Position numbers and translations under genes: made by a program. A DNA stretch of 26,368 nucleotides. It comes from a virus. Within the stretch, counting starts at the first letter, position 1. Each line of letters starts with the position of its first letter. This document shows positions 1,115 through 14,062 of this stretch, one piece after another. Where the stretch lies: positions 1 through 26,368 of the IMG/VR virus record IMGVR_UViG_3300029264_000309; one strand, written 5' to 3'. The notes beneath the pieces were generated by a model. It had not been told where the DNA came from. It worked only from the letters and a program-made list of their open reading frames with translations, and made no database searches.

Positions 1115-2538
1115 GCATCAATGGCTCAAATATAACGGGCTCCCTAGACGCGGCTATTAGTCGTCTTGGATTATCAGCAGCTATCAGCCCCATTGATAGG
1201 CTTACTGTTACTGTTCAGCTAGGTAACTTCATCCTTCAACGCAAGATTAGCGACAGTTTCACGTCTGTCGATGATCTTGTGATGGAGTTCTTTAAGAGCC
1301 TTACAGACAATGCTGAACTCGCGGACTATGTAACCACAGACTTCATGAAGGGTCTAAGTGATGCTGGTTTAGTAAGTGACATTCAAGTACTGGCTTTCTT
1401 CAAGGGCTTAACAGACACCGTTGCTTCCACAGATGCCCTTGTTACAAGCTCTTCTAAGCCCCTACAGGACGCTTCAGCATTAACTGACACATTCACCCTC
1501 CTAGCTAGTAAAGCGTTCTTAGACGGCTCTAGGTTAAGCGACCGTGACGTATTGTCAGTTGGCAAGAACTTACACAACTCTGCTTCCCTGGTTGAGCAGT
1601 TTAGTTACAATTTAAGCAGGGGCATTGCTGAGGGAGCGGCAATAGGCGAAGCCTATGCAGCCGCTATCAGTAAACCATTCCAAGATGGCATCAACTTAGG
1701 TGACGATCACGTCGATCTTTCTACTCAAAAAGTAAAAGAAGACCAGGCGTTTCTGACTGAGGTAATCACCCTTACTGCAGAGAAGCTGTTAAGTGACGGT
1801 AGTATCTCCAATGACCAGCTAGTGTGGCTTATTCGTAAGCCCTTTAAGTACGATGCCACTAGTTTTGAGGACTACGTTACTTTATCCGCCCAAAAGGTAC
1901 TAAACGAAGTTGCAGGCGCTTTTGACCGCATTAGTGAGTTTTATGTAGTTAAAGAGCTTGCTGACGCAACTGCTATTGGCTCACATCACGCTGTTACTCT
2001 GGCTAAAGCCACAGAGGATGTAAGTATTTTTGGTGATGCACACACAACCATTGTGCAAAAAAGCCTGAATGACACTTTAGTTACTGCAGACGCCATTGAC
2101 GGTTCGGCATCCATTGGTGATGACCAAGCATTCCAGACCATTAAGGGCGCTACTGATGTAGGTCGCATTACTGATTCCATACGCATCTCATCCACGTTTA
2201 GACGCGCACTCTCTGACACGAGTGCTGTATCTGAAGATACACAACTGCACTTAAGCAAGTCAGTTGTTAATGACGCTGTCACATTCTTAGAACAGCTCTC
2301 TTTTACCTCAAATAAGCAACTTGTTGACCTCTTCTCTGTTACAGAGTTAATCGGCAAAGCTGCTACTAAATCGTTTGCCGACGCATCCAGCGTCAGTGAC
2401 GAGTTCGCCAAGGTACCTACTAAGGTAGCTAGCGATACAACTGTGCTTGCCGATGGCATGGTTTTACTTTCCCAAGGCTACGTCAATGACGCCTTTTATT
2501 TTGCAGATGACTACACCGGTACATCTCGAACAGGTTAA
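1111..2538 (+). CDS. Tail rod protein made of 18-residue repeats
   Basis: A 475-residue protein. After a 44-residue N-terminal part, the whole rest divides into about 23 tandem units, most of exactly 18 residues. The unit begins Lys-x-(Leu/Phe)-x-Asp, has a hydrophobic residue at position 9 and Asp or Glu at position 11, for example KGLSDAGLVSDIQVLAFF and KPLQDASALTDTFTLLAS. One unit is stretched to 28 residues near 2050-2130. No membrane segment, signal peptide or enzyme motif is seen. Similar short D-rich repeats occur in structural proteins of marine phages, where the function is not established. The place between the adaptor-type genes and the fibres, with an ATGA overlap to the gene before, suggests a fibrous or rod-like tail part. 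The fold and role are inference. Confidence 0.7.
   Translation: MSINGSNITGSLDAAISRLGLSAAISPIDRLTVTVQLGNFILQRKISDSFTSVDDLVMEFFKSLTDNAELADYVTTDFMKGLSDAGLVSDIQVLAFFKGLTDTVASTDALVTSSSKPLQDASALTDTFTLLASKAFLDGSRLSDRDVLSVGKNLHNSASLVEQFSYNLSRGIAEGAAIGEAYAAAISKPFQDGINLGDDHVDLSTQKVKEDQAFLTEVITLTAEKLLSDGSISNDQLVWLIRKPFKYDATSFEDYVTLSAQKVLNEVAGAFDRISEFYVVKELADATAIGSHHAVTLAKATEDVSIFGDAHTTIVQKSLNDTLVTADAIDGSASIGDDQAFQTIKGATDVGRITDSIRISSTFRRALSDTSAVSEDTQLHLSKSVVNDAVTFLEQLSFTSNKQLVDLFSVTELIGKAATKSFADASSVSDEFAKVPTKVASDTTVLADGMVLLSQGYVNDAFYFADDYTGTSRTG
1243..2535 (+). repeat. Coding 54-base (18-residue) tandem repeat
   Basis: About 23 degenerate units encode the K-x-L-x-D repeat of the rod protein. Unit lengths in residues, read from the translation, are 17, then seven of 18, then 19, 18, 18, 19, 19, 18, 18, 28, 20, 18, 19, 18, 18, 18 and a final 20. 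The DNA copies are much diverged, so the unit is old and kept at protein level rather than recently duplicated. Confidence 0.8.
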
Positions 2539-2556: not shown

Positions 2557-3018
2557 ATGATTAATGAAAAAATGAAATTGGCTGGGCACGTAAGCATCGT
2601 ATTACGCGATGCTTCTGGTCAGATTAAAGATGAACGAGAGATCAGAAACTTGATTGTAAACAAGGGCTTAGGCTACATCGCTTCTCGTATGGTAAATGCA
2701 GATAAGGGTATTATGACTCACATGGGAATCGGTTCTGGTACCGCAGCTGCTGATGCGGTTCAAAGCGATCTAGTGACCACTTTAGGTCAACGTGGTGCTC
2801 TAGCCTCTTCTACCATTGATGGCGATGCTGGTGAAAAAGTTGTGTACGTCGCTTCGTTTTCAGCAGGTGAAGGAACAGGTGCTGTAACTGAAGCAGGTAT
2901 CTTCAACTCTAATGCGAACGATGCTGACATGCTTTGCCGTACTACATTTGGTGTAGTCAACAAAGCACCTGATGACACAATGGCTATTGCTTGGACAATT
3001 ACTCTGTCTGCAGCTTAA
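2557..3018 (+). CDS. Small tail/fibre-associated structural protein
   Basis: A 153-residue protein with the run of motifs seen in a widespread phage structural family: an RNLIVNKGLGYIASRM helix, a HMGIGSGT turn, a long beta region with GEKVVYVASF, and the pair VTEAGIFN and AIAWTITL at the end. The same fold occurs alone and as the end part of longer tail fibre and tail-collar proteins. Start choice is supported by AAGGAA at 2545-2550, 6 bases before the ATG. It lies between the 18-residue-repeat protein and the long fibre with only short gaps, so it is probably part of the same tail operon. A role in fibre attachment or capping is likely but is inference. Confidence 0.6.
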   Translation: MINEKMKLAGHVSIVLRDASGQIKDEREIRNLIVNKGLGYIASRMVNADKGIMTHMGIGSGTAAADAVQSDLVTTLGQRGALASSTIDGDAGEKVVYVASFSAGEGTGAVTEAGIFNSNANDADMLCRTTFGVVNKAPDDTMAIAWTITLSAA

Positions 3019-3036: not shown

Positions 3037-6000
3037 ATGACTACAATTACAACGCGTAATGGTAAGGGATCACCCCTTACTTCTACTGAATTAGACGAAA
3101 ACTTTACTAACCTAAATACAGACAAGGCAGATAAGACACAGGTATTAACTGACGTACCCGAAGACGCTGTTTTTACAGACACTGTTGATGATGCGAATGA
3201 AATACTTAGAAAGCTTAAAACGGTTGATGGGGAAGGTAGTCGATTAGACGCTGATCGCCTTCAAGGTCAACGTGCGAGTGCTTTCCTAACACCTACTGGT
3301 GATGGGTCTCAATTAACTGGTTTACCTAGTTCTACTGGTGCGACTGCAGAACAAGTACTTGCAATCGAAGCTAACACAGATAAGGTGTCTAACGTAGATC
3401 ACCCTTTAGTTGAAACAGCAGTACCACTGAATGCTGTTTTCACTGACAACGATACAGTTTATGACGACTCTGCTTTAGCTGAAGCAGTTGCACTTAACAC
3501 TGAAAAATTAACCAACTCAACAGATGCCTCAGACCTAACTTCAGGTACGCTAGCAGACGGCATATTCCCAAGCACATTACCCGCTATTAGTGGTGAGAAC
3601 CTAACTAACTTGCCTTCATCTGGTGCTGCAACAACAAATGCTTCAGATTTAACATCAGGTACTTTACCAGATGGTAGATTCCCAGCTACGCTACCTACTA
3701 TGAGTGGCGAGAACCTGACTGACCTACCTAATATAAATGCCTCAGATATAAGATCAGGTACTCTGCGAAGTGGTAGATTCCCTGACACATTACCAGCTGT
3801 GAGTGGTGCCAATCTAACTAACTTACCTACTTATGATGACACTGCTATACTTCTTGCAATTGGCCTTAACACAGATAAGGTAAGCAACGTAGAGCATCCG
3901 CTAGTAGAAAAGGCGGTTCCTGACGACGCATTATTTACAGACACAACGTACGCTGTAGGCGACGGTGGTCTGACTACTAATGATTTTACTGATGATGATC
4001 ATACTAAGTTAAATAACATTGAAACCAATGCAGATGTGACAGATACAACTAATGTTGTAGCGTCTTTAACTGCAGGTAATAACATAACAATAGCCGCTGA
4101 CGGTACTATAGCTTCGACCAATACGGATACAGTTTATGATTCAACAGCTATAGATATTGCAGTTGGATTAAACACTGATAAAGTAAGTAACGTAGACCAT
4201 CCTTTAGTTGAGACTGCAGTGCCTACAGGTGCTTTGTTTACAGACACTACGTATACCTCTGCAAGCTTTACTCTTAGTGACTTACAAGGATTTAATGCAA
4301 ACGAGCACATAAACTGGGGTGCTGCTAGTCAAGGGACTATACACTCGACAAACCTTCCAGCAATAGCTATAACTTCTGTACAGACCGCCACCAACAGACC
4401 CACTCATCTAGCTTTAACGACTGAAGAAGGTGACGTAGTAATACGTACTGACCAGAACAAGACGTACATACGCAATGCTGGTCTCGTTGGGGATCTAACC
4501 GATTTTACAGAGATTATCAGTCCTACGGGCGGTGTTACATCTGTCGATGGAGTCTCAGGCGCAGTTTCTTTGGATCACGATACCTTAACAGGTTATGTCG
4601 CTGCGGAGCACGTAGACTGGGCTTTAGCTGCAACTCCCAACATACACACGAGCAACTACACTAATACAGTTTACGATGATACCGATATAGTTGAAGCGGT
4701 GAGGCTTAACACTCTCAAGGTCTCCAACATAGCCCACCCTACCGTAGGCGTTGAGGTACCAACTGATGCTGTGTTTACCGATACTGATACAATCTATGAT
4801 GACACGGCTTTAGCTTTGGCAGTCGGTTTAAACACCTCTAAAGTAAGCAATGTGGAACATCCTTTAGTCGAGACAGCAGTTCCAGATGGTGCTGTGTTTA
4901 CTGACACTGTATTTACAGATGCTGATGCAGTATCTGCAGTAGTAGCCTCAGACCTCGACATGGACGGTAACAAGGTACTGTTCGGTAACGTCTACTCTTT
5001 ATTGGAGAATCTCCCAGCTGCAGCTGACTACCACGGTATGTTCGCACATGTGCATAACACGGGTAGGGGCTACTTTGCCCACCAAGGCAATTGGGTAAGC
5101 TTAGCTAATGAGTCCGATCTAGCTGCAATTAACTCAGCTGTAGGGCTTAACTCCGCTAAGGTTACTAACTATGACCAATCTAAGGAAGACATTGAAGCTC
5201 TAGGCATAGCAGCAGACTCTATCACAGGTGCTTTACCTGCTATAGATGGCTCGGCTTTAACTAACCTACCTGATACGGGTACTACTTACGAAGTAGGTGA
5301 TGGTGGACTGACCCAAAAGAACTTTACTACAACACTGAATACTAAATTAGCCAGTATCGCTGACTCTGCTAACAATTACTCACTACCTGACGATGTAGTA
5401 CTTCAGGGTGAATTGATTGCGTGGGGCGGTGCGCTACACGCAACAGATGCCTTATCAATATCAGGTCATACTATTACGCTAAGGCGCGGCAATAGCGCTG
5501 TTGAGACCGTTATTGTTCCTGATAACGATACAACTTACTCGGTTGGCGATGGTGGACTAACCCAACATAATTTCACTACTGATGATCATAATAAGTTAAA
5601 CGGTATCGCTGCTTCTGCCAATAACTACTCATTGCCTGCGAGTGTTATTCATCAGACAGAATTGAGTGATAGCGTTAGTGATAACAGCACAACTGTTGCA
5701 GCTAACGTTAAAGGAGTTAAGGCTGCGTATGATCGAGCATGGCCTAACACTGTTTATAATGACACCGCTTTAACTACCTCTGTAGCCGGTAAGTTGCCAC
5801 TAACGGGCGGCAGTATGACTGGTCGCTTAAAGGTCTTAGATGTGAAAGAGACAGTCGTTGCCTTAACAGGAACTGCACCATCGCTTAATCCAGCAAACGG
5901 CACTATGCAAACGTGGACTTTACCTGGCACATCTAACCCGACATTTGATAGTGGCTTTGGTGATGGGGAAAGCATCACACTTATGATCTCTGATGGGTCA

Positions 6001-6138
6001 AGCCGCACAATCAGCTGGCCTGCCATTCAATGGGCTGGAGGATCACCTCCTGACCTAGCAACTTCTGGCTACACCGTCATTGTTCTATGGAGAGTCGGAA
6101 GCACTTTTTACGGGCAACATGCTGGGGATGTGTCTTAA
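3037..6138 (+). CDS. Long tail fibre with mosaic repeats
   Basis: A 1033-residue fibre. It opens with TTRNGKGSPLTSTELDENF, the signature start of many phage fibres, followed by NLNTD. The shaft is a mosaic of three short repeat types: five copies of a unit of about 26 residues with NTDKVSNV, HPLVE and AVFTDT; three full copies of a unit with ASDLTSGTL, FP and SGENLTNLP; and three copies of VGDGGLT followed by NFT. The C-terminal part (about residues 940-1033) is a beta domain with ISWPAIQWAGGSPP and GYTVIVLWRVGSTFYG, a known end domain of this fibre type. AAGGGG before the ATG gives the ribosome site. The fibre probably trims to a homotrimer and contacts the host surface; the receptor is unknown. 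The stop overlaps the next start as TAATG. Confidence 0.85.
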   Translation: MTTITTRNGKGSPLTSTELDENFTNLNTDKADKTQVLTDVPEDAVFTDTVDDANEILRKLKTVDGEGSRLDADRLQGQRASAFLTPTGDGSQLTGLPSSTGATAEQVLAIEANTDKVSNVDHPLVETAVPLNAVFTDNDTVYDDSALAEAVALNTEKLTNSTDASDLTSGTLADGIFPSTLPAISGENLTNLPSSGAATTNASDLTSGTLPDGRFPATLPTMSGENLTDLPNINASDIRSGTLRSGRFPDTLPAVSGANLTNLPTYDDTAILLAIGLNTDKVSNVEHPLVEKAVPDDALFTDTTYAVGDGGLTTNDFTDDDHTKLNNIETNADVTDTTNVVASLTAGNNITIAADGTIASTNTDTVYDSTAIDIAVGLNTDKVSNVDHPLVETAVPTGALFTDTTYTSASFTLSDLQGFNANEHINWGAASQGTIHSTNLPAIAITSVQTATNRPTHLALTTEEGDVVIRTDQNKTYIRNAGLVGDLTDFTEIISPTGGVTSVDGVSGAVSLDHDTLTGYVAAEHVDWALAATPNIHTSNYTNTVYDDTDIVEAVRLNTLKVSNIAHPTVGVEVPTDAVFTDTDTIYDDTALALAVGLNTSKVSNVEHPLVETAVPDGAVFTDTVFTDADAVSAVVASDLDMDGNKVLFGNVYSLLENLPAAADYHGMFAHVHNTGRGYFAHQGNWVSLANESDLAAINSAVGLNSAKVTNYDQSKEDIEALGIAADSITGALPAIDGSALTNLPDTGTTYEVGDGGLTQKNFTTTLNTKLASIADSANNYSLPDDVVLQGELIAWGGALHATDALSISGHTITLRRGNSAVETVIVPDNDTTYSVGDGGLTQHNFTTDDHNKLNGIAASANNYSLPASVIHQTELSDSVSDNSTTVAANVKGVKAAYDRAWPNTVYNDTALTTSVAGKLPLTGGSMTGRLKVLDVKETVVALTGTAPSLNPANGTMQTWTLPGTSNPTFDSGFGDGESITLMISDGSSRTISWPAIQWAGGSPPDLATSGYTVIVLWRVGSTFYGQHAGDVS
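3373..4908 (+). repeat. Fibre-shaft repeat units (NTDKVSNV...FTDT type)
   Basis: Five units of about 26 residues begin near 3373, 3868, 4171, 4708 and 4831. Each has the order NTDKVSNV, HPLVE, VP and FTDT, and the fourth is the most diverged (HPTVGVEVP). Between the first two lie three tandem ASDLTSGTL units, near 3526, 3640 and 3739. The repeats encode the fibre shaft and could be sites of recombination between fibre genes. Confidence 0.7.
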
Positions 6139-7265
6139 TGCTGACCCTTGCTAACAGACTTGGAAGCGTTGGTAATCCAGACGCTTCTATATTTAGTGTC
6201 ACTTGTGCAGACGAGCCGGGGAGTACGCTCATACCTTGGAATGCGTTCTGGCTGATGATGGCTAGAGATTGGAATAGATATAGTCTACAGGAGCATGGCC
6301 CTAACACCGAAACCTTTATAGCGACTCAACTTAGCAACGGTCGGCCTCAATTTGCTATAGATGCCGATATAGCGGAATTGCTTCGGGTAGGAGCTCAAAA
6401 CGGACACACTTTCCAAACCTCAAGTGGCGGTTTAAACACGACTTTCACACTGACGTTTCTTGGAACTGTTGATCAAAGTCTAACTATAGATTGGGGTGAT
6501 GGTTCTACAAGCGGCTACTCAGGTAATGAAGTATCACACACCTATGCTGGAGTCAGTGACGGAGACACTAAAACCATTAGTGTTACCTGTGCGAGTGAGT
6601 TCTATTCTTCTCACATGACAACACTCTATAACTGGGGAACCACGGCATTTTCTAGCGGTAATGCACTACCTGAATGGCTAAAGTTAATCCAAGTTGATGT
6701 GTCTACGGATGTGCCTACCTTTGCTGCTGGAGCCACATTCGGTAGCTTCTATGGCAACTTCAATCTCAATATAAACGCAGATTTAACAGGTTGGGACGTT
6801 AGTAATGTAACCAATATGCAACGTGCGCTAACTAGCAGAACCTTCAACCAAGACATAAGTGGTTGGGACGTTAGCAATGTTAGTAACTTTGCATCCATGT
6901 TTTGGGAGGCAAATACTTTCAACCAAGACATTGGTAGCTGGAACATGGGCAATGCAACAACTATGTACGCTATGTTTAATCATTGCTACGTTTTTAATCA
7001 AAATATTAGTAGCTGGAATACAGGCAACGTGACCAATATGAAAAGCGTGTTCTACTATGCTTACGCTTTCAGTCAAGACATTCGTAGTTGGAACGTGACT
7101 GGAATTTCAGGTGCTGGAGAGGGCGGACCTTCTGGTCATTCATTTCTCAATATTTTTTTCCGTGCTGACGCTATGAACAGTCGCTTTGGATTTTCAACAG
7201 GAGGCACACAGAATGGTCAAAATCTCCCATACGCCCCGATACTAGCTTGGTTTAACTCAGATTAA
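6138..7265 (+). CDS. PKD-like plus DUF285 repeat tail protein
   Basis: A 375-residue protein with three parts. Residues 1-95 resemble no family I know. Residues about 100-155 form a PKD-like beta domain with TIDWGDGST and VSHTYAGV. Residues about 218-322 carry five units of 24-25 residues of the DUF285 (BspA-like surface protein) type, with WDVSNVTNM and TFNQDI. DUF285 proteins are mostly bacterial surface adhesins, so this phage copy is probably a virion-surface binding protein. The ATG at 6138 overlaps the stop of the fibre gene (TAATG) and has GGGG 10 bases upstream; an ATG at 6087 lies inside the fibre gene without a ribosome site. Being directly after a fibre and before a fibre chaperone suggests it is a fibre tip or accessory adhesin. 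Confidence 0.75.
   Translation: MLTLANRLGSVGNPDASIFSVTCADEPGSTLIPWNAFWLMMARDWNRYSLQEHGPNTETFIATQLSNGRPQFAIDADIAELLRVGAQNGHTFQTSSGGLNTTFTLTFLGTVDQSLTIDWGDGSTSGYSGNEVSHTYAGVSDGDTKTISVTCASEFYSSHMTTLYNWGTTAFSSGNALPEWLKLIQVDVSTDVPTFAAGATFGSFYGNFNLNINADLTGWDVSNVTNMQRALTSRTFNQDISGWDVSNVSNFASMFWEANTFNQDIGSWNMGNATTMYAMFNHCYVFNQNISSWNTGNVTNMKSVFYYAYAFSQDIRSWNVTGISGAGEGGPSGHSFLNIFFRADAMNSRFGFSTGGTQNGQNLPYAPILAWFNSD
6789..7104 (+). repeat. DUF285-type tandem repeat (24-25 residues)
   Basis: Five tryptophan-led units. Four Trp-to-Trp distances of 24, 25, 25 and 25 residues can be counted. The first two units are nearly the same at DNA level around GGTTGGGACGTTAG (6789 and 6861), which points to a recent duplication. 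Confidence 0.75.
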
Positions 7266-7278
7266 AAGGAACACACTT

Positions 7279-7701
7279 ATGTATTTAAGATTAATTGAAG
7301 GGGTTCCTGAGACATATTCAGCGGCCCAATTGCGCAGGGACAACCCGAACACTTCATTCCCTAGAAGCCCGTCAAATGAACTACTGGAGTCTTATGGTCT
7401 TTTTAAGTATTCGATAACGCCACCTACAGGCAGTGCGGTTAACAGTATTAAAGGCACACCTGAGTTCGCTCTAGTGAATGGCAGTTGGGTGCTGGGAAGC
7501 CAGTACGTTCTCTTATCAGATGCACAGTTGGCTTCTCAGGCAAGGGCGACACGCACCCGTTTATTGGCTAATACAGATTGGACAGCCGTGAGCGATCTTA
7601 CAATGTCTGATGCTATGACAGCCTATCGTAGTGCCTTGCGTAATTTACCAGAGCAAGACAACTTCCCTGCAACAATTGTATGGCCCACACAACCGGAATA
7701 G
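7279..7701 (+). CDS. Tail fibre assembly chaperone-like protein
   Basis: A 140-residue protein. The C-terminal half has the pattern of the phage tail assembly chaperone family PF16778: RATRTRLLANTDWT, then a Tyr-Arg helix (AYRSALRNLP), then FPATIVWPTQP. Proteins of this kind are small, are encoded just after fibre genes, and help fold or trimerise the fibre C-terminus without always being kept in the virion. AAGGA lies 8 bases before the ATG. The N-terminal half (MYLRLIEGVPETYSAAQLR) is typical of fibre-linked proteins that begin with a short beta-rich tail part. Whether it serves the 1033-residue fibre, the DUF285 protein or both cannot be seen from sequence. Confidence 0.7.
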   Translation: MYLRLIEGVPETYSAAQLRRDNPNTSFPRSPSNELLESYGLFKYSITPPTGSAVNSIKGTPEFALVNGSWVLGSQYVLLSDAQLASQARATRTRLLANTDWTAVSDLTMSDAMTAYRSALRNLPEQDNFPATIVWPTQPE

Positions 7702-10536: not shown

Positions 10537-10648
10537 AGTTTTAGTCCTTAGATGCGTTAACAAGGTGGTGGAGTGCTTTCAATGGTGAAAGGTTCGGCAG
10601 GCATTTATATACTGGGTACGTTCATTTTTATTAGTGCAAAAGGTTTTT
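10537..10648. promoter_or_regulatory. Divergent intergenic region between phoH and fibre module
   Basis: The 112 bases separate genes that point away from each other, so starts of transcription in both directions are expected here. A perfect dyad CTTTCA-ATGG-TGAAAG lies at 10576-10591. On the minus strand TTGAAA (complement of 10577-10582) could serve as a -35 box for phoH, but no good -10 is seen 16-18 bases further. Confidence 0.45.
10585..10613 (+). promoter_or_regulatory. Candidate sigma70 promoter for second fibre module
   Basis: GTGAAA (10585-10590, 4 of 6 matches to the -35 consensus) and TATACT (10608-10613, 5 of 6 matches to the -10 consensus) are 17 bases apart. The likely start of transcription near 10620 would leave a leader of about 29 bases with AAAGG (10639-10643) before ATG 10649. 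The right arm of a dyad (10586-10591) covers the -35 box, so a repressor or activator site is possible. Confidence 0.45.
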
Positions 10649-10984
10649 ATGACTACATTGACTATTACCGCAGATAACCACTACACACTCAACATGGTTT
10701 ACAAAGATGAGGCGGGTTATGTGATCAATCTTGATGGTGCAACGGCTAAATTTGTAATGCGACGTTCAATGTACTCGCCGGTACTGATTAATCGCATTGC
10801 AGTGATTACTGGTGAGACTGGCTCAATTCTTATTGAGTTAACTCCAGCAGACACTGCTGAGCTACTTGATAAAGTAATTGAAGAGCAATTCGTATTTGGT
10901 GTCAGCCTAACGCAGGCAGATGGTACGAAAACCGTGATTACCTCTGGTGAAGTATCCCTTCAGCAAAATATTGCACGAGATTAA
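10649..10984 (+). CDS. Small tail protein with BppU N-terminal-like beta domain
   Basis: A 111-residue beta-rich protein of the same pattern as the one at 725-1114: an early strand YTLNMVYKDEAG, then NLDGATAKFVMR, then GSILIELTPADTAELL, then a strand with FGVSLTQADGTK and a closing GEVSLQQ. This fits the BppU N-terminal type. AAAGG lies 6 bases before ATG 10649; a GTG at 10634 in frame has no ribosome site and was rejected. It is the first gene of the second fibre module, only 3 bases before the 1024-residue fibre, and so is probably its attachment partner. The role is inferred from the domain type and place. Confidence 0.6.
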   Translation: MTTLTITADNHYTLNMVYKDEAGYVINLDGATAKFVMRRSMYSPVLINRIAVITGETGSILIELTPADTAELLDKVIEEQFVFGVSLTQADGTKTVITSGEVSLQQNIARD

Positions 10985-10987
10985 AGC

Positions 10988-13900
10988 ATGACTGATCAAT
11001 CACTGGACATAACGGTAAGCAATCCTACCGTTGTAGTTACCCCTGCTCAAAATAGCACAGTAACTATTAATGCAAACGATGCGACAGTGGTTGTGGCTGA
11101 GTCATCAAACCAACTGACCCTTTCTCCTACTGCCATACAAACAGTGGAAGTCTATGATCCAACACAGGGTTTAAAGTTTACGACTAACCCTAACAACCCG
11201 TTCTTGAGTACGGCAACGTGCAACGCAACAGTGGGTAACGTTGTCTCTGTAGCAGGCTTTTGTGCCATAACACTGCGGTGGGTTACCACAGGCGACAGTG
11301 CACACGTAAATATTTACCGTGCTACATCCACTAACTTTGCTCATGCTGAAAGGATTGGTGACAGTGACGAAGAAGCTCACACAGATACTGTTGAACCAGG
11401 GGTGGCATACACCTATTGGTTTGAGCCAGTGGACTACAATGGCACTACAGGGCCCCTATCCTTGCCTCACAGCGCTACAAGCGGTAATAACGCAATTGGG
11501 TTTGTAGAAGCGTTAGGTGATTTAACTGCAGCTCACCTTAGCCCAGAGCTAACAAACCTGCTTAACCAAATTATTGGTGATTCTGCAGATGAACAAGCTG
11601 CTTTGCGTGATGGTGCAATTAGCGACCAAGCCATCTACATTGATTCTCAATACGGGCAGCTACTACAATTTGTGAACCAATACAAAGCAGAGATGGATAC
11701 TGCTGATAGTTACTCTTTGGCTCAACTAGAATCCCAGTCCCTGTACTTTGCCACACAAACAATTGCACTAGCACAACAAATTAATGCTCTTTCTGCTTCT
11801 GTAGCTACGGATATTGCCGCAGCAAACGCTGCTATTACCCAAGAACAGACGACCCGTGCTAACGAGATTGAAGCTGTAGCGTTAACAGTAACCACATTAG
11901 ATTCGACATTTAGCACAGATCTTTCTGCTACCAATGCACTTATTAGTAGCGAGGCTGGAACGCGTGCCAACGCGGTGGAAGCCGTAGCAGGGGAGGTTAC
12001 CCGGTTAGAGACAGACTTTCAGACAGATCTTACCTCAACCCAATCACTACTGACACAAGAAGCCAGTACACGTTCTGCAGAGAACTTGGCTCTAGCACAG
12101 ACAGTTACCCAATTGTCTGCAGACCTTACGACCAACGAAAACAGTATTAACGCTTCACTGAGTAATCAGAACTCGACTTTAGCTACGCTTGATAGTGCTT
12201 TGGCTTCGACTCAGCAGTCGTTAGTAGCTAATTACGACACACTCAATGCGGGTATCACCTCAGAAGCCAACGTCAGGGCTTCAGCAGCGGGGGCGTTAGC
12301 AGGACGCTTAGATACGTTAGAAGCGGGGGATTCAACCACAGGATCTGTGGCGTGGGCAACGAATAACACACTGGTAACTGCTAACTCTTACGCTGATGAT
12401 ATCGCATCTGATGCAGCACAATCTTTAAGCGAATCAGTGGATACTTTTGGTTCCCAGCTAAGTAACCTACGTGTACAAGCGCGTCAGGGAAACAACCTGT
12501 TAGATATGTCTGTGTGGGTGCCTCAATCAATTGACGACAGTCTAGTGGGCGTCAACGGTGGTGAATGGATTCTTAACGGCTTACCGAGCGAGAACACTCT
12601 TTTACTGCACAGCGAAGGCCCAAGCGGGCACTCTGATGTGGTGTGGCAAGCTAAATCCATTAACGGCAATGCTGATGGTGGGTGGAATACAGGAAGCTTT
12701 GATGTTGATTCCAGTAAGACTTACCGGGCTGTTGTTTGGATTAAGAAGATGGATACCAATGATGGCACCACTTACTTTGGCTGCATGGGAAACATCCAGA
12801 AGAATCTGAATGGATCGGCTAACTTTAATCCGTACTTCTTCACTGGTGATGTACCGGAGCTCAATAAGTGGTACTTATTAGTGGGTATACTTCACGGCGC
12901 TAGCTATGAAGGGGGTTATTCAAGTGTATCGGGTGTCTACGACCCTACTACAGGCGAGAAAGTAGTAGATTGTACAGAGTTCAAGATGGACTCCAATACT
13001 ACAACGCAGTCGCACCGTAGCTACTTGTACAGCACAAATACTTGGGACGTTATCCAGTATTTTGCCTATCCCCGCTTTGAGGCAGTAGATGGTAATGAGC
13101 CTAGTCTTGGCGCATTAATGTCCACCAGTGATTTCGTCAATACTGTGTCAGTCACCAAGAGATCTGTTGATGGAATACTTGGTGAGTACGCTGTTAAGAT
13201 TGATGATAACAATCGTGTAGCAGGCTTTGGTTTAATCAATGGCTCAGGTACATCAGCCTTTGATATTGTGGCAGACAAGTTTTCTATAGCTAATCCAGAC
13301 ACACCCACCACTAAAGACTTTTACTACGATACCGTCGCTAATACATTAAAGTTCCGTGGGCAACTTATTCTCAGTAATGGGACAGGCGGCACGTATACTG
13401 TGTCTGACGTTAGTGATATTCAGGCTCAAGACGGTAGAGGCGTAGACTTTACAACTGAGCTGTACCAGAGAAGCTCATCTAATACTAGAGGATATTCGGG
13501 TTGGGGCACTTATGCAGACGCCCTCCCTTTAAGCGATACTGAACCTTTCTTGTGGAACAAGACTACCACTACTTACACTGATGGCACTGACTACACTAAC
13601 GTTAGGGTTATAGCGCAGAAAGGTGATAACGGTGAACCAGGCAATCCTGGTTCTGGCGGTGCAGGCTTTTACCGTTATGGGTCAAATACGGGTAATTGGC
13701 CTGGGAACGCCACAGTAAACACTCGCTTAGAGTCAGTTGCTGGGCGTCCACCCGTTCAAGATGACGTATTCACTATTTACAAGAACAGTGACCCCGCCGT
13801 AAGCAATACAAAACGCTATGATGGAAGCGCATGGGTTGCTGCAGCGCTGTTAATTGATGGGGATATGATTGCCACAGGCACTATCGCCGGTAATAGAATT

Positions 13901-14062
13901 GTAGCTGGATCACTTACAGTAGACACAGCCAATATAACTGGAAACCTAGAAGCAAATAGAATTAGTACGAGTACTGGTGCAAGCAGGATAGAGATAACTA
14001 ACACTGCTATTAATGTCTACAACAACGGTACGCTAAGGGTAAAGATAGGGAACTTGAGTTAA
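10988..14062 (+). CDS. Large tail fibre with lambda gpJ-like C-terminal part
   Basis: A 1024-residue multi-domain fibre. From the N-terminus: a Val/Thr-rich beta start; an FN3-like domain at about 85-165 (ITLRWVTTGDSAHVNIYRA and GVAYTYWFEPVD); a long helical coiled-coil stretch at about 180-500 that includes three 36-residue repeats at 281-388; a jelly-roll-like domain at about 504-700 (GGEWILNG, YRAVVWIKK, LNKWYLLVG), a type seen in fibres as possible sugar binder; a DUF1983-like gpJ-type segment at about 705-800 (FDIVADKFSI and LKFRGQL); a tiny collagen-like GEPGNPG; and a beta end part with GTIAGNRIVAGSL. Phages of the lambda type use such parts in the tail tip. Here the tip-building half of gpJ is absent. 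The stop overlaps the next start as TAATG. Confidence 0.8.
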   Translation: MTDQSLDITVSNPTVVVTPAQNSTVTINANDATVVVAESSNQLTLSPTAIQTVEVYDPTQGLKFTTNPNNPFLSTATCNATVGNVVSVAGFCAITLRWVTTGDSAHVNIYRATSTNFAHAERIGDSDEEAHTDTVEPGVAYTYWFEPVDYNGTTGPLSLPHSATSGNNAIGFVEALGDLTAAHLSPELTNLLNQIIGDSADEQAALRDGAISDQAIYIDSQYGQLLQFVNQYKAEMDTADSYSLAQLESQSLYFATQTIALAQQINALSASVATDIAAANAAITQEQTTRANEIEAVALTVTTLDSTFSTDLSATNALISSEAGTRANAVEAVAGEVTRLETDFQTDLTSTQSLLTQEASTRSAENLALAQTVTQLSADLTTNENSINASLSNQNSTLATLDSALASTQQSLVANYDTLNAGITSEANVRASAAGALAGRLDTLEAGDSTTGSVAWATNNTLVTANSYADDIASDAAQSLSESVDTFGSQLSNLRVQARQGNNLLDMSVWVPQSIDDSLVGVNGGEWILNGLPSENTLLLHSEGPSGHSDVVWQAKSINGNADGGWNTGSFDVDSSKTYRAVVWIKKMDTNDGTTYFGCMGNIQKNLNGSANFNPYFFTGDVPELNKWYLLVGILHGASYEGGYSSVSGVYDPTTGEKVVDCTEFKMDSNTTTQSHRSYLYSTNTWDVIQYFAYPRFEAVDGNEPSLGALMSTSDFVNTVSVTKRSVDGILGEYAVKIDDNNRVAGFGLINGSGTSAFDIVADKFSIANPDTPTTKDFYYDTVANTLKFRGQLILSNGTGGTYTVSDVSDIQAQDGRGVDFTTELYQRSSSNTRGYSGWGTYADALPLSDTEPFLWNKTTTTYTDGTDYTNVRVIAQKGDNGEPGNPGSGGAGFYRYGSNTGNWPGNATVNTRLESVAGRPPVQDDVFTIYKNSDPAVSNTKRYDGSAWVAAALLIDGDMIATGTIAGNRIVAGSLTVDTANITGNLEANRISTSTGASRIEITNTAINVYNNGTLRVKIGNLS
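11828..12151 (+). repeat. Three 36-residue coiled-coil repeats
   Basis: Three tandem units of exactly 36 residues (108 bases each: 11828-11935, 11936-12043, 12044-12151) share ITQE/ISSE/LTQE, then TR, then a Val/Leu-rich helix with VT-x-L and a DL or LT end. A fourth partial copy (AGITSEANVRASAAGALAG) lies near 12247. The unit builds the stalk of the 1024-residue fibre. Confidence 0.7.

Follow-up and report, generated by a model that had tools for sequence, protein, structure and literature searches.

A gene for an 18-residue repeat protein beside a gp80-like gene in a viral tail-fibre region: a candidate rope for fibre beads

Gene order around the repeat gene

The window, by which we mean the whole stretch of 26,368 nucleotides that was analysed (IMG/VR record IMGVR_UViG_3300029264_000309), opens with a head-tail adaptor gene (27-734; + strand, as for all features up to 7701). 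Its product matches phrog_2125 at E 3.1e-63 and, weakly, SU10_adaptor (E 3.9e-5; 24.6 bits, the cut-off being 27), and homologues are found in 396 phage records, Schitoviridae among these. There follow a small Ig/BppU_N-like protein (725-1114), a candidate fibre-to-tail adaptor on the strength of its family's position before the repeat gene and of BppU_N matches within that family; the 475-residue repeat protein, here called the rope (1111-2538); a 153-residue gp80-like protein, here called the bead (2557-3018); and a tail-fibre protein of 1033 residues with N-terminal GKGSPLTSTELDENFTNLN (3037-6138; phrog_24456 tail fiber, E 2.1e-14). The repeat gene thus sits in the tail/fibre region, as the original prediction had supposed. 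The end of the long fibre gene is overlapped by a gene for a DUF285-repeat protein (6087-7265; PF03382, E 2.9e-33; autocorrelation lag 25, z 4.3), perhaps a distal, host-binding part of the fibre, and a tail assembly chaperone comes next (7279-7701; PF16778, E 1.9e-16). At 10634-14062, a small gene (116 aa; phrog_1084, E 2e-10) lies directly before that of a 1024-residue protein with a lag of 36 (z 4.5), and the pair may encode a further fibre together with an adaptor for it.

The order of adaptor, Ig-like, repeat and bead genes recurs at the IMG/VR loci L001, L003, L005, L006, L007 and L016, with the fibre gene next where the contig reaches, and the order of Ig-like, repeat and bead genes is also found in Achromobacter phage CF418P1, in Aeromonas phage phiA008 and in EBPR siphovirus 1, the Ig-like gene of the last being only 19% alike. 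By tblastn, the Ig-like gene of CF418P1 returned itself and two weak matches (E 5 and 2), and the CF418P1 rope returned itself alone. Among the matches listed, the gene immediately upstream of the ORF preceding the bead belongs to the Ig-like family at 78 of the 100 loci with sequence there, a count that keeps redundant loci and takes preceding ORFs of any lag. BppU_N was matched at E<=0.1 by 14 of 43 aligned members of this family (best 2.1e-7); the window's own Ig-like protein gave no BppU_N match at that threshold. In a PDB profile search with the family the best match was a cellulosomal scaffoldin adaptor protein (9.4e-5), and 8jou was absent.

An 18-residue period in the repeat protein

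The repeat protein begins with a part without repeats (1111-1242), in which the motif DAxIxRLGLSA ... LGxF is kept in four aligned relatives. This is followed by an array of 22 units (1243-2478) and by a C-terminal unit (2479-2535) whose YFxDDYxGxSRT tail is kept in five aligned proteins. The original prediction had placed about 23 units, most of exactly 18 residues, between residue 45 and the end of the protein, that is, at 1243-2535, and this is what we found: the coordinates are those of the repeat part of the ORF, and residues 45-475 divide into 23 units, with 16 of 18 residues, five of 19, one of 20 and one of 28. Its description of the period as nearly perfect fits the first eight units and is generous for those beyond them. 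Autocorrelation with BLOSUM62 from residue 45 onwards has its maximum at lag 18 (z 11.4), with further peaks at lags 36 (z 6.3), 72 and 6 (z 4.5 each) and 55 (z 4.4). The largest |z| over all lags in 500 shuffles of the protein was 4.2, which rules out chance or composition as the source of the period, and lag 18 was never the top lag in 15 other proteins of the window.

The copies had been described as diverged in their DNA, with unit length kept at the level of the protein, and both statements hold: a repeat search with a minimum length of 14 returned a single pair of 14-base copies in 1243-2535. With practically no DNA repeats in this stretch, recent DNA duplication is ruled out as the origin of the units. 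A search of Pfam with the repeat protein gave no match, the best PHROG match had an E of 0.19, and tblastn against 50,697 phage records gave nothing at E 0.01.

Length variation among relatives

Distinct full-length relatives of the repeat protein in IMG/VR measure 179, 233, 306, 627 and 655 aa, compared with 475 in the window (L001 and L002 are identical copies, L004 is close to L003, and L008 is cut by the contig end). In the alignment they have the N-terminal part and the C-terminal YFxDDYxGxSRT tail in common. The number of residues between two conserved anchors is 72, 126, 199, 520 and 520 in the relatives and 392 in the window, which on division by 18 gives 4.0, 7.0, 11.1, 28.9 and 28.9, and 21.8 for the window. 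The repeat protein therefore varies in steps close to whole units, and the rod of set length that had been envisaged does not hold among these close relatives. The bead is constant, at 154 aa in all five relatives and 153 in the window, and the relatives' bead proteins are 69-74% identical to the window's. Across the gene pair more widely, the coefficient of variation in length is 2.7% for the bead (n=74) and 59% for the repeat protein (n=75; the shortest length in this set, 22, is artificial, the first Met having been taken as the start).

The gp80-like bead protein

The bead gene was noticed through a weak tblastn match of the relative L005 to phage Simon (E 0.02), where a siphophage tail protein has a similar end to its C-terminus and the next gene encodes a homologue of the protein at 2557-3018. 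Simon's homologue weakly matches the Pfam family 'Podophage GP4 fiber I protein gp80', and the window's protein matches phrog_5417 (E 2.9e-21 over residues 7-149). The gp80 family (PF23140) was matched at E<=0.1 by 69 of 86 bead homologues, weakly, the bit scores being below the cut-off where shown; the window's own bead gave no PF23140 match.

From 86 aligned bead proteins, among them that of the window, a model with a pLDDT of 95.2 was obtained. Searched with Foldseek, its only match below 0.001 was to the tail of HFTV1 (9h4p_BD, E 7e-7), and 8jou_a, 'Fiber I and fiber-tail-adaptor of phage GP4', was returned with a probability of 0.90 and an E of 0.097. In VIA-align, where a Z below 8 can reflect a common arrangement, the six best entries were all proteins of tailed viruses, namely 9h4p_BD (Z 12.4), 9fko_A (phi812 arm segment, 8.7), 6hhk_B (A511 gp105, 8.6), 8jou_a (7.7 over 111 residues), 9mt4_L (6.3) and 5hx2_B (T4 baseplate, 5.9); the next entry was unrelated, with a Z of 4.3. 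The 8jou_a chain is present in 10 copies in the PDB. In HFTV1, an archaeal virus, the bead fold lies at residues 380-510 of 9h4p_BD, the baseplate hub protein gp44 (profile E 4.7e-8), with a weak second copy by profile. Unlike the bead of the window, it is a domain inside a 954-residue trimeric hub, and the available part of the description of that hub mentions no rope.

Linkage of the repeat gene to the bead gene

We queried IMG/VR by a DNA pattern made from the bead protein alone, which returned at least 120 loci. These are not a random sample, and since the pattern was built from beads that mostly lie beside ropes, it may favour rope-bead loci. Among the matches listed, the bead family is present in 118 of 120 loci, one of which (L105) is the window's twin. 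Among the matches listed, 97 non-redundant ORFs precede the bead, and lag 18 is the top lag, with z>=4, in 58 of them; other top lags were 19 (five ORFs), 38 (four), 24 and 29 (one each), and 28 ORFs had none. Among 445 control ORFs of the same loci, again among the matches listed, lag 18 or 19 occurred in none and lag 38 in one. When whole preceding ORFs were taken (n=106, among the matches listed), lag 18 was found in 66, lag 19 in seven and lag 38 in two, and no lag reached z 4 in 29; leaving out L105 gave lag 18 in 65 of 105. Fisher's exact test on 66/106 versus 0/445 gives 1e-57, a guide only, as two ORF definitions are mixed and the loci are related.

Near the window within the family the two genes are strongly linked; the linkage weakens among more distant members, since lag-18 neighbours are scarcer at 24 loci in bacterial genomes with more distant beads. 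At these loci six first-choice ORFs passed (five with lag 18, one with lag 36), and a second look found an adjacent lag-18 ORF in 8 of the 24, lying downstream of the bead in L172. The rope of L157 (lag 18, z 11.3) had been overlooked by the longest-ORF rule. Lag 18 occurred in 1 of 95 control ORFs, which is that same gene after the bead in L172 (1234-3072), and of two controls with lag 36, one is the antisense shadow of the L157 rope and the other the gene that follows the bead in L163. With all ORFs of at least 90 aa considered, antisense ORFs with rope lags were seen in L155, L157, L160 and L172, at coordinates that overlap the ropes. The L163 gene (4429-7089) has a very strong 36-residue period (z ~20), and its position is unrelated to the rope.

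Unit consensus, special units and C-terminal ends

A consensus was derived from 1591 units of 80 repeat proteins, with a profile trained on those same proteins. It has hydrophobic residues at positions 2, 8 and 14/16, D/E at 4 (79%) and 10 (88%), and K/R at 18 (67%), and the K/R, L, D and D/E positions of the original prediction were likewise borne out in the alignment of relatives. Spacings between units (n=1438) were 18 in 712 cases, 19 in 176 and 20 in 126. Spacings of the form 20-x-20 were observed 19 times, versus 11.1 in shuffles (3 in 1000); this is only suggestive of units working in pairs, since the excess is driven by a few repeat proteins and even and odd unit numbers are found in 38 and 42 proteins, respectively. 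In the repeat protein of L144, spacings of 20 and 18 alternate over ten consecutive spacings, as though its units were paired.

The motif TDD(L/V/I)(D/N)G..DDQ...F.K was found in 31 of 111 proteins from the gene position before the bead, versus 2 of 1442 other ORFs, and 26 of these 31 carriers have a copy at a distance of about 70, 90 or 145 residues from the C-terminus. In the window the motif is looser and is not counted among the 31; it belongs to the irregular 28-residue unit (2062-2145), which carries DGSASIGDDQAFQTIK, and lies 146 residues from the C-terminus, the distance also seen in L003 and L005. This special, conserved unit may serve as a specialised binding site. Among the matches listed, a D-Y-V-G-like C-terminal end is present in 71 of 106 ORFs preceding the bead gene. 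Another type of tail, with spaced FN/LN motifs replacing DYVG, was seen in L034, L056, L071, L083, L092, L098 and L146, where the proteins have lag 18 as well.

Interpretation and comparison with known fibres

We consider it likely, at a probability of roughly 0.6, that the repeat protein serves as a flexible rope on which gp80-like beads are organised into a tail fibre. The rope would be a scaffold chain with little fold of its own, and its 18-residue units would be docking segments along which copies of the bead protein, encoded by the neighbouring gene, would assemble, probably as dimers, as in fibre I of the Ralstonia podophage GP4 (PDB 8JOU). The Ig/BppU-like protein would fix the chain to the neck, with the large fibre protein as the distal payload or adhesin beyond the end that presumably points outward. 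The number of units would set the number of strung beads and hence the reach of the fibre. That each unit holds one bead, or each two units one dimer, is a more tentative proposal, with the odds somewhat against it.

Zheng et al. are said to have found in 2023 that in each GP4 fibre I an elongated rope protein links five dimers of gp80. As we read the comparison, the bead fold and the rope-linked fibre are already known from GP4, with which the window shares a bead of similar fold and, in its family, the weak matches to gp80, and the gene order of the window fits the GP4 plan of anchor, rope, bead and adhesin. The system of the window differs in its counts, for GP4 is reported to have five dimers per rope and the counts of D-anchors here range from 5 to 35 in one clade; we take it as a possible member of the GP4 type. 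The candidate for its rope is the repeat protein encoded directly before the bead. Sequence searches of the PDB with the ropes did not return the GP4 rope, a chain that may lack letters there.

Among the other readings, that of the original prediction is a self-folding beta-solenoid rod of set length, and 18 residues do fit one coil of a left-handed beta-helix. AlphaFold2, run on the monomer with the window's repeat protein and four relatives, gave no fold, with a mean pLDDT of 29.5, all 475 of 475 residues below 50, and low-confidence helices without strands. The alignment of five sequences is shallow, so this is weak evidence against a fold, and the absence of a fold in the rope alone is expected if the chain is ordered by its partner. 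It nevertheless counts against a solenoid, as AlphaFold2 tends toward confident beta-solenoids for perfect repeats according to the available part of PMC11795689. With lengths that run from 179 to 655 aa and units of 19, 20 and 28 residues among those of 18, we regard the solenoid rod as highly improbable. Three repeat proteins might instead be wound into a beta-structured shaft, which the gp80-like protein would join to the next fibre. The spaced hydrophobic positions and the secondary lag of 6 would suit such a shaft, and many phage fibres are trimers; the model without strands, a prediction for the monomer only, speaks against it, as does GP4 fibre I, which is not known to be a classic trimer, and the shaft appears improbable to us.

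A flexible tether, that is, an extended and mostly disordered linker from neck to fibre with units that bind no beads and a gp80-like protein forming the junction at one end, would account for the lack of a predicted fold, for the free variation in unit number and for the conserved C-terminal end. However, a mere spacer would need neither units set about 18 residues apart, with D/E and K/R conserved across 1591 of them (in a profile trained on these very proteins), nor linkage to a bead gene, and we hold the tether to be unlikely, if less so than the shaft.

If each unit does dock one gp80-like subunit, the more tentative proposal, repeat number would directly program the length and avidity of the fibre, phages would tune its reach by gaining or losing whole units with all other parts constant, and the 18/20 alternation in L144 would be the sign of paired units that together take one bead dimer. 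The bead-carrying rope would provide a sequence signature for a type of fibre known to us from one solved podophage, and a testable rule relating gene length to fibre length. Uncultivated viruses commonly carry gene pairs with the rope-bead signature. Protein engineers, too, would be interested in a scaffold of repeats combined with an invariant bead protein.

We found no description of 18-residue repeats with a gp80-like bead in the open-licence literature. A similar module is gp34-gp36 of Alishewanella phage LSH1, which, according to the available part of the paper (PMC13243795), includes a gp80-like dimer protein, an Ig-fold protein and one protein whose C-terminal part defies prediction, and differs in a lyase-like domain at the N-terminus of gp34. 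In the same part of PMC13243795, the GP4 protein is described as a dimeric fibril joining the adhesin to the collar, the collar is called Ig-like, and the authors wonder about 'some repetitive motif' in the unpredictable part, a domain that they leave open and that a rope may explain. In Slicko01, a phage related to LSH1, the two parts outside 50001-91999 gave no bead match and no lag 18.

Siphophage and myophage versions

A general fibre of beads on a coded rope in podo-, sipho- and myophages, with one gp80-like subunit per unit, is conceivable, though we would sooner doubt than assume it. In siphophages, homologues of Simon's phrog_384 protein, a tail protein, have the repeat part as their C-terminus; the N-terminal tail domain is absent from the window's protein. 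The phrog_384 profile was matched by 35 of 57 rope C-termini at E<=0.1 (best 2e-6), and the Achromobacter homologues have a C-terminal stretch ending in approximately YFAESYVG or YFAEDYFG with the bead gene next. A bead gene is next in each of five homologues with a longer C-terminus (Simon, BcepGomr, ART, phiAxp-1 and ewii_LB8). The tail of ewii has lag 18 at z 4.2 and that of phiAxp-1 lag 19 at 3.4; lag 18 was not significant in the tails of Simon, BcepGomr and ART.

In Knedl (275 aa) and Val-yong3 (190 aa) the homologues are short and lack repeats, and the stretch examined contains no bead gene. The protein of Pseudomonas phage Knedl (L149, 3004-3831) ends in GYFAEDYVE, so a YFAEDYV end is not specific to beads, and the tail motif of the Knedl type may bind something else.

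Among loci with a clear lag and no Ig-like gene, at least 6 of the 10 listed follow a baseplate gene that by eye looks like T4 gp6. The gp6-like gene of L069 and L132 matches phrog_219 'baseplate wedge subunit' (2e-146 and 8e-146, respectively), and the N-terminal part of the repeat-bearing protein there matches baseplate wedge. At these two myophage-like loci the repeat-bearing protein lies between the gp6-like gene and the bead, which is followed by a baseplate wedge gene (phrog_438).
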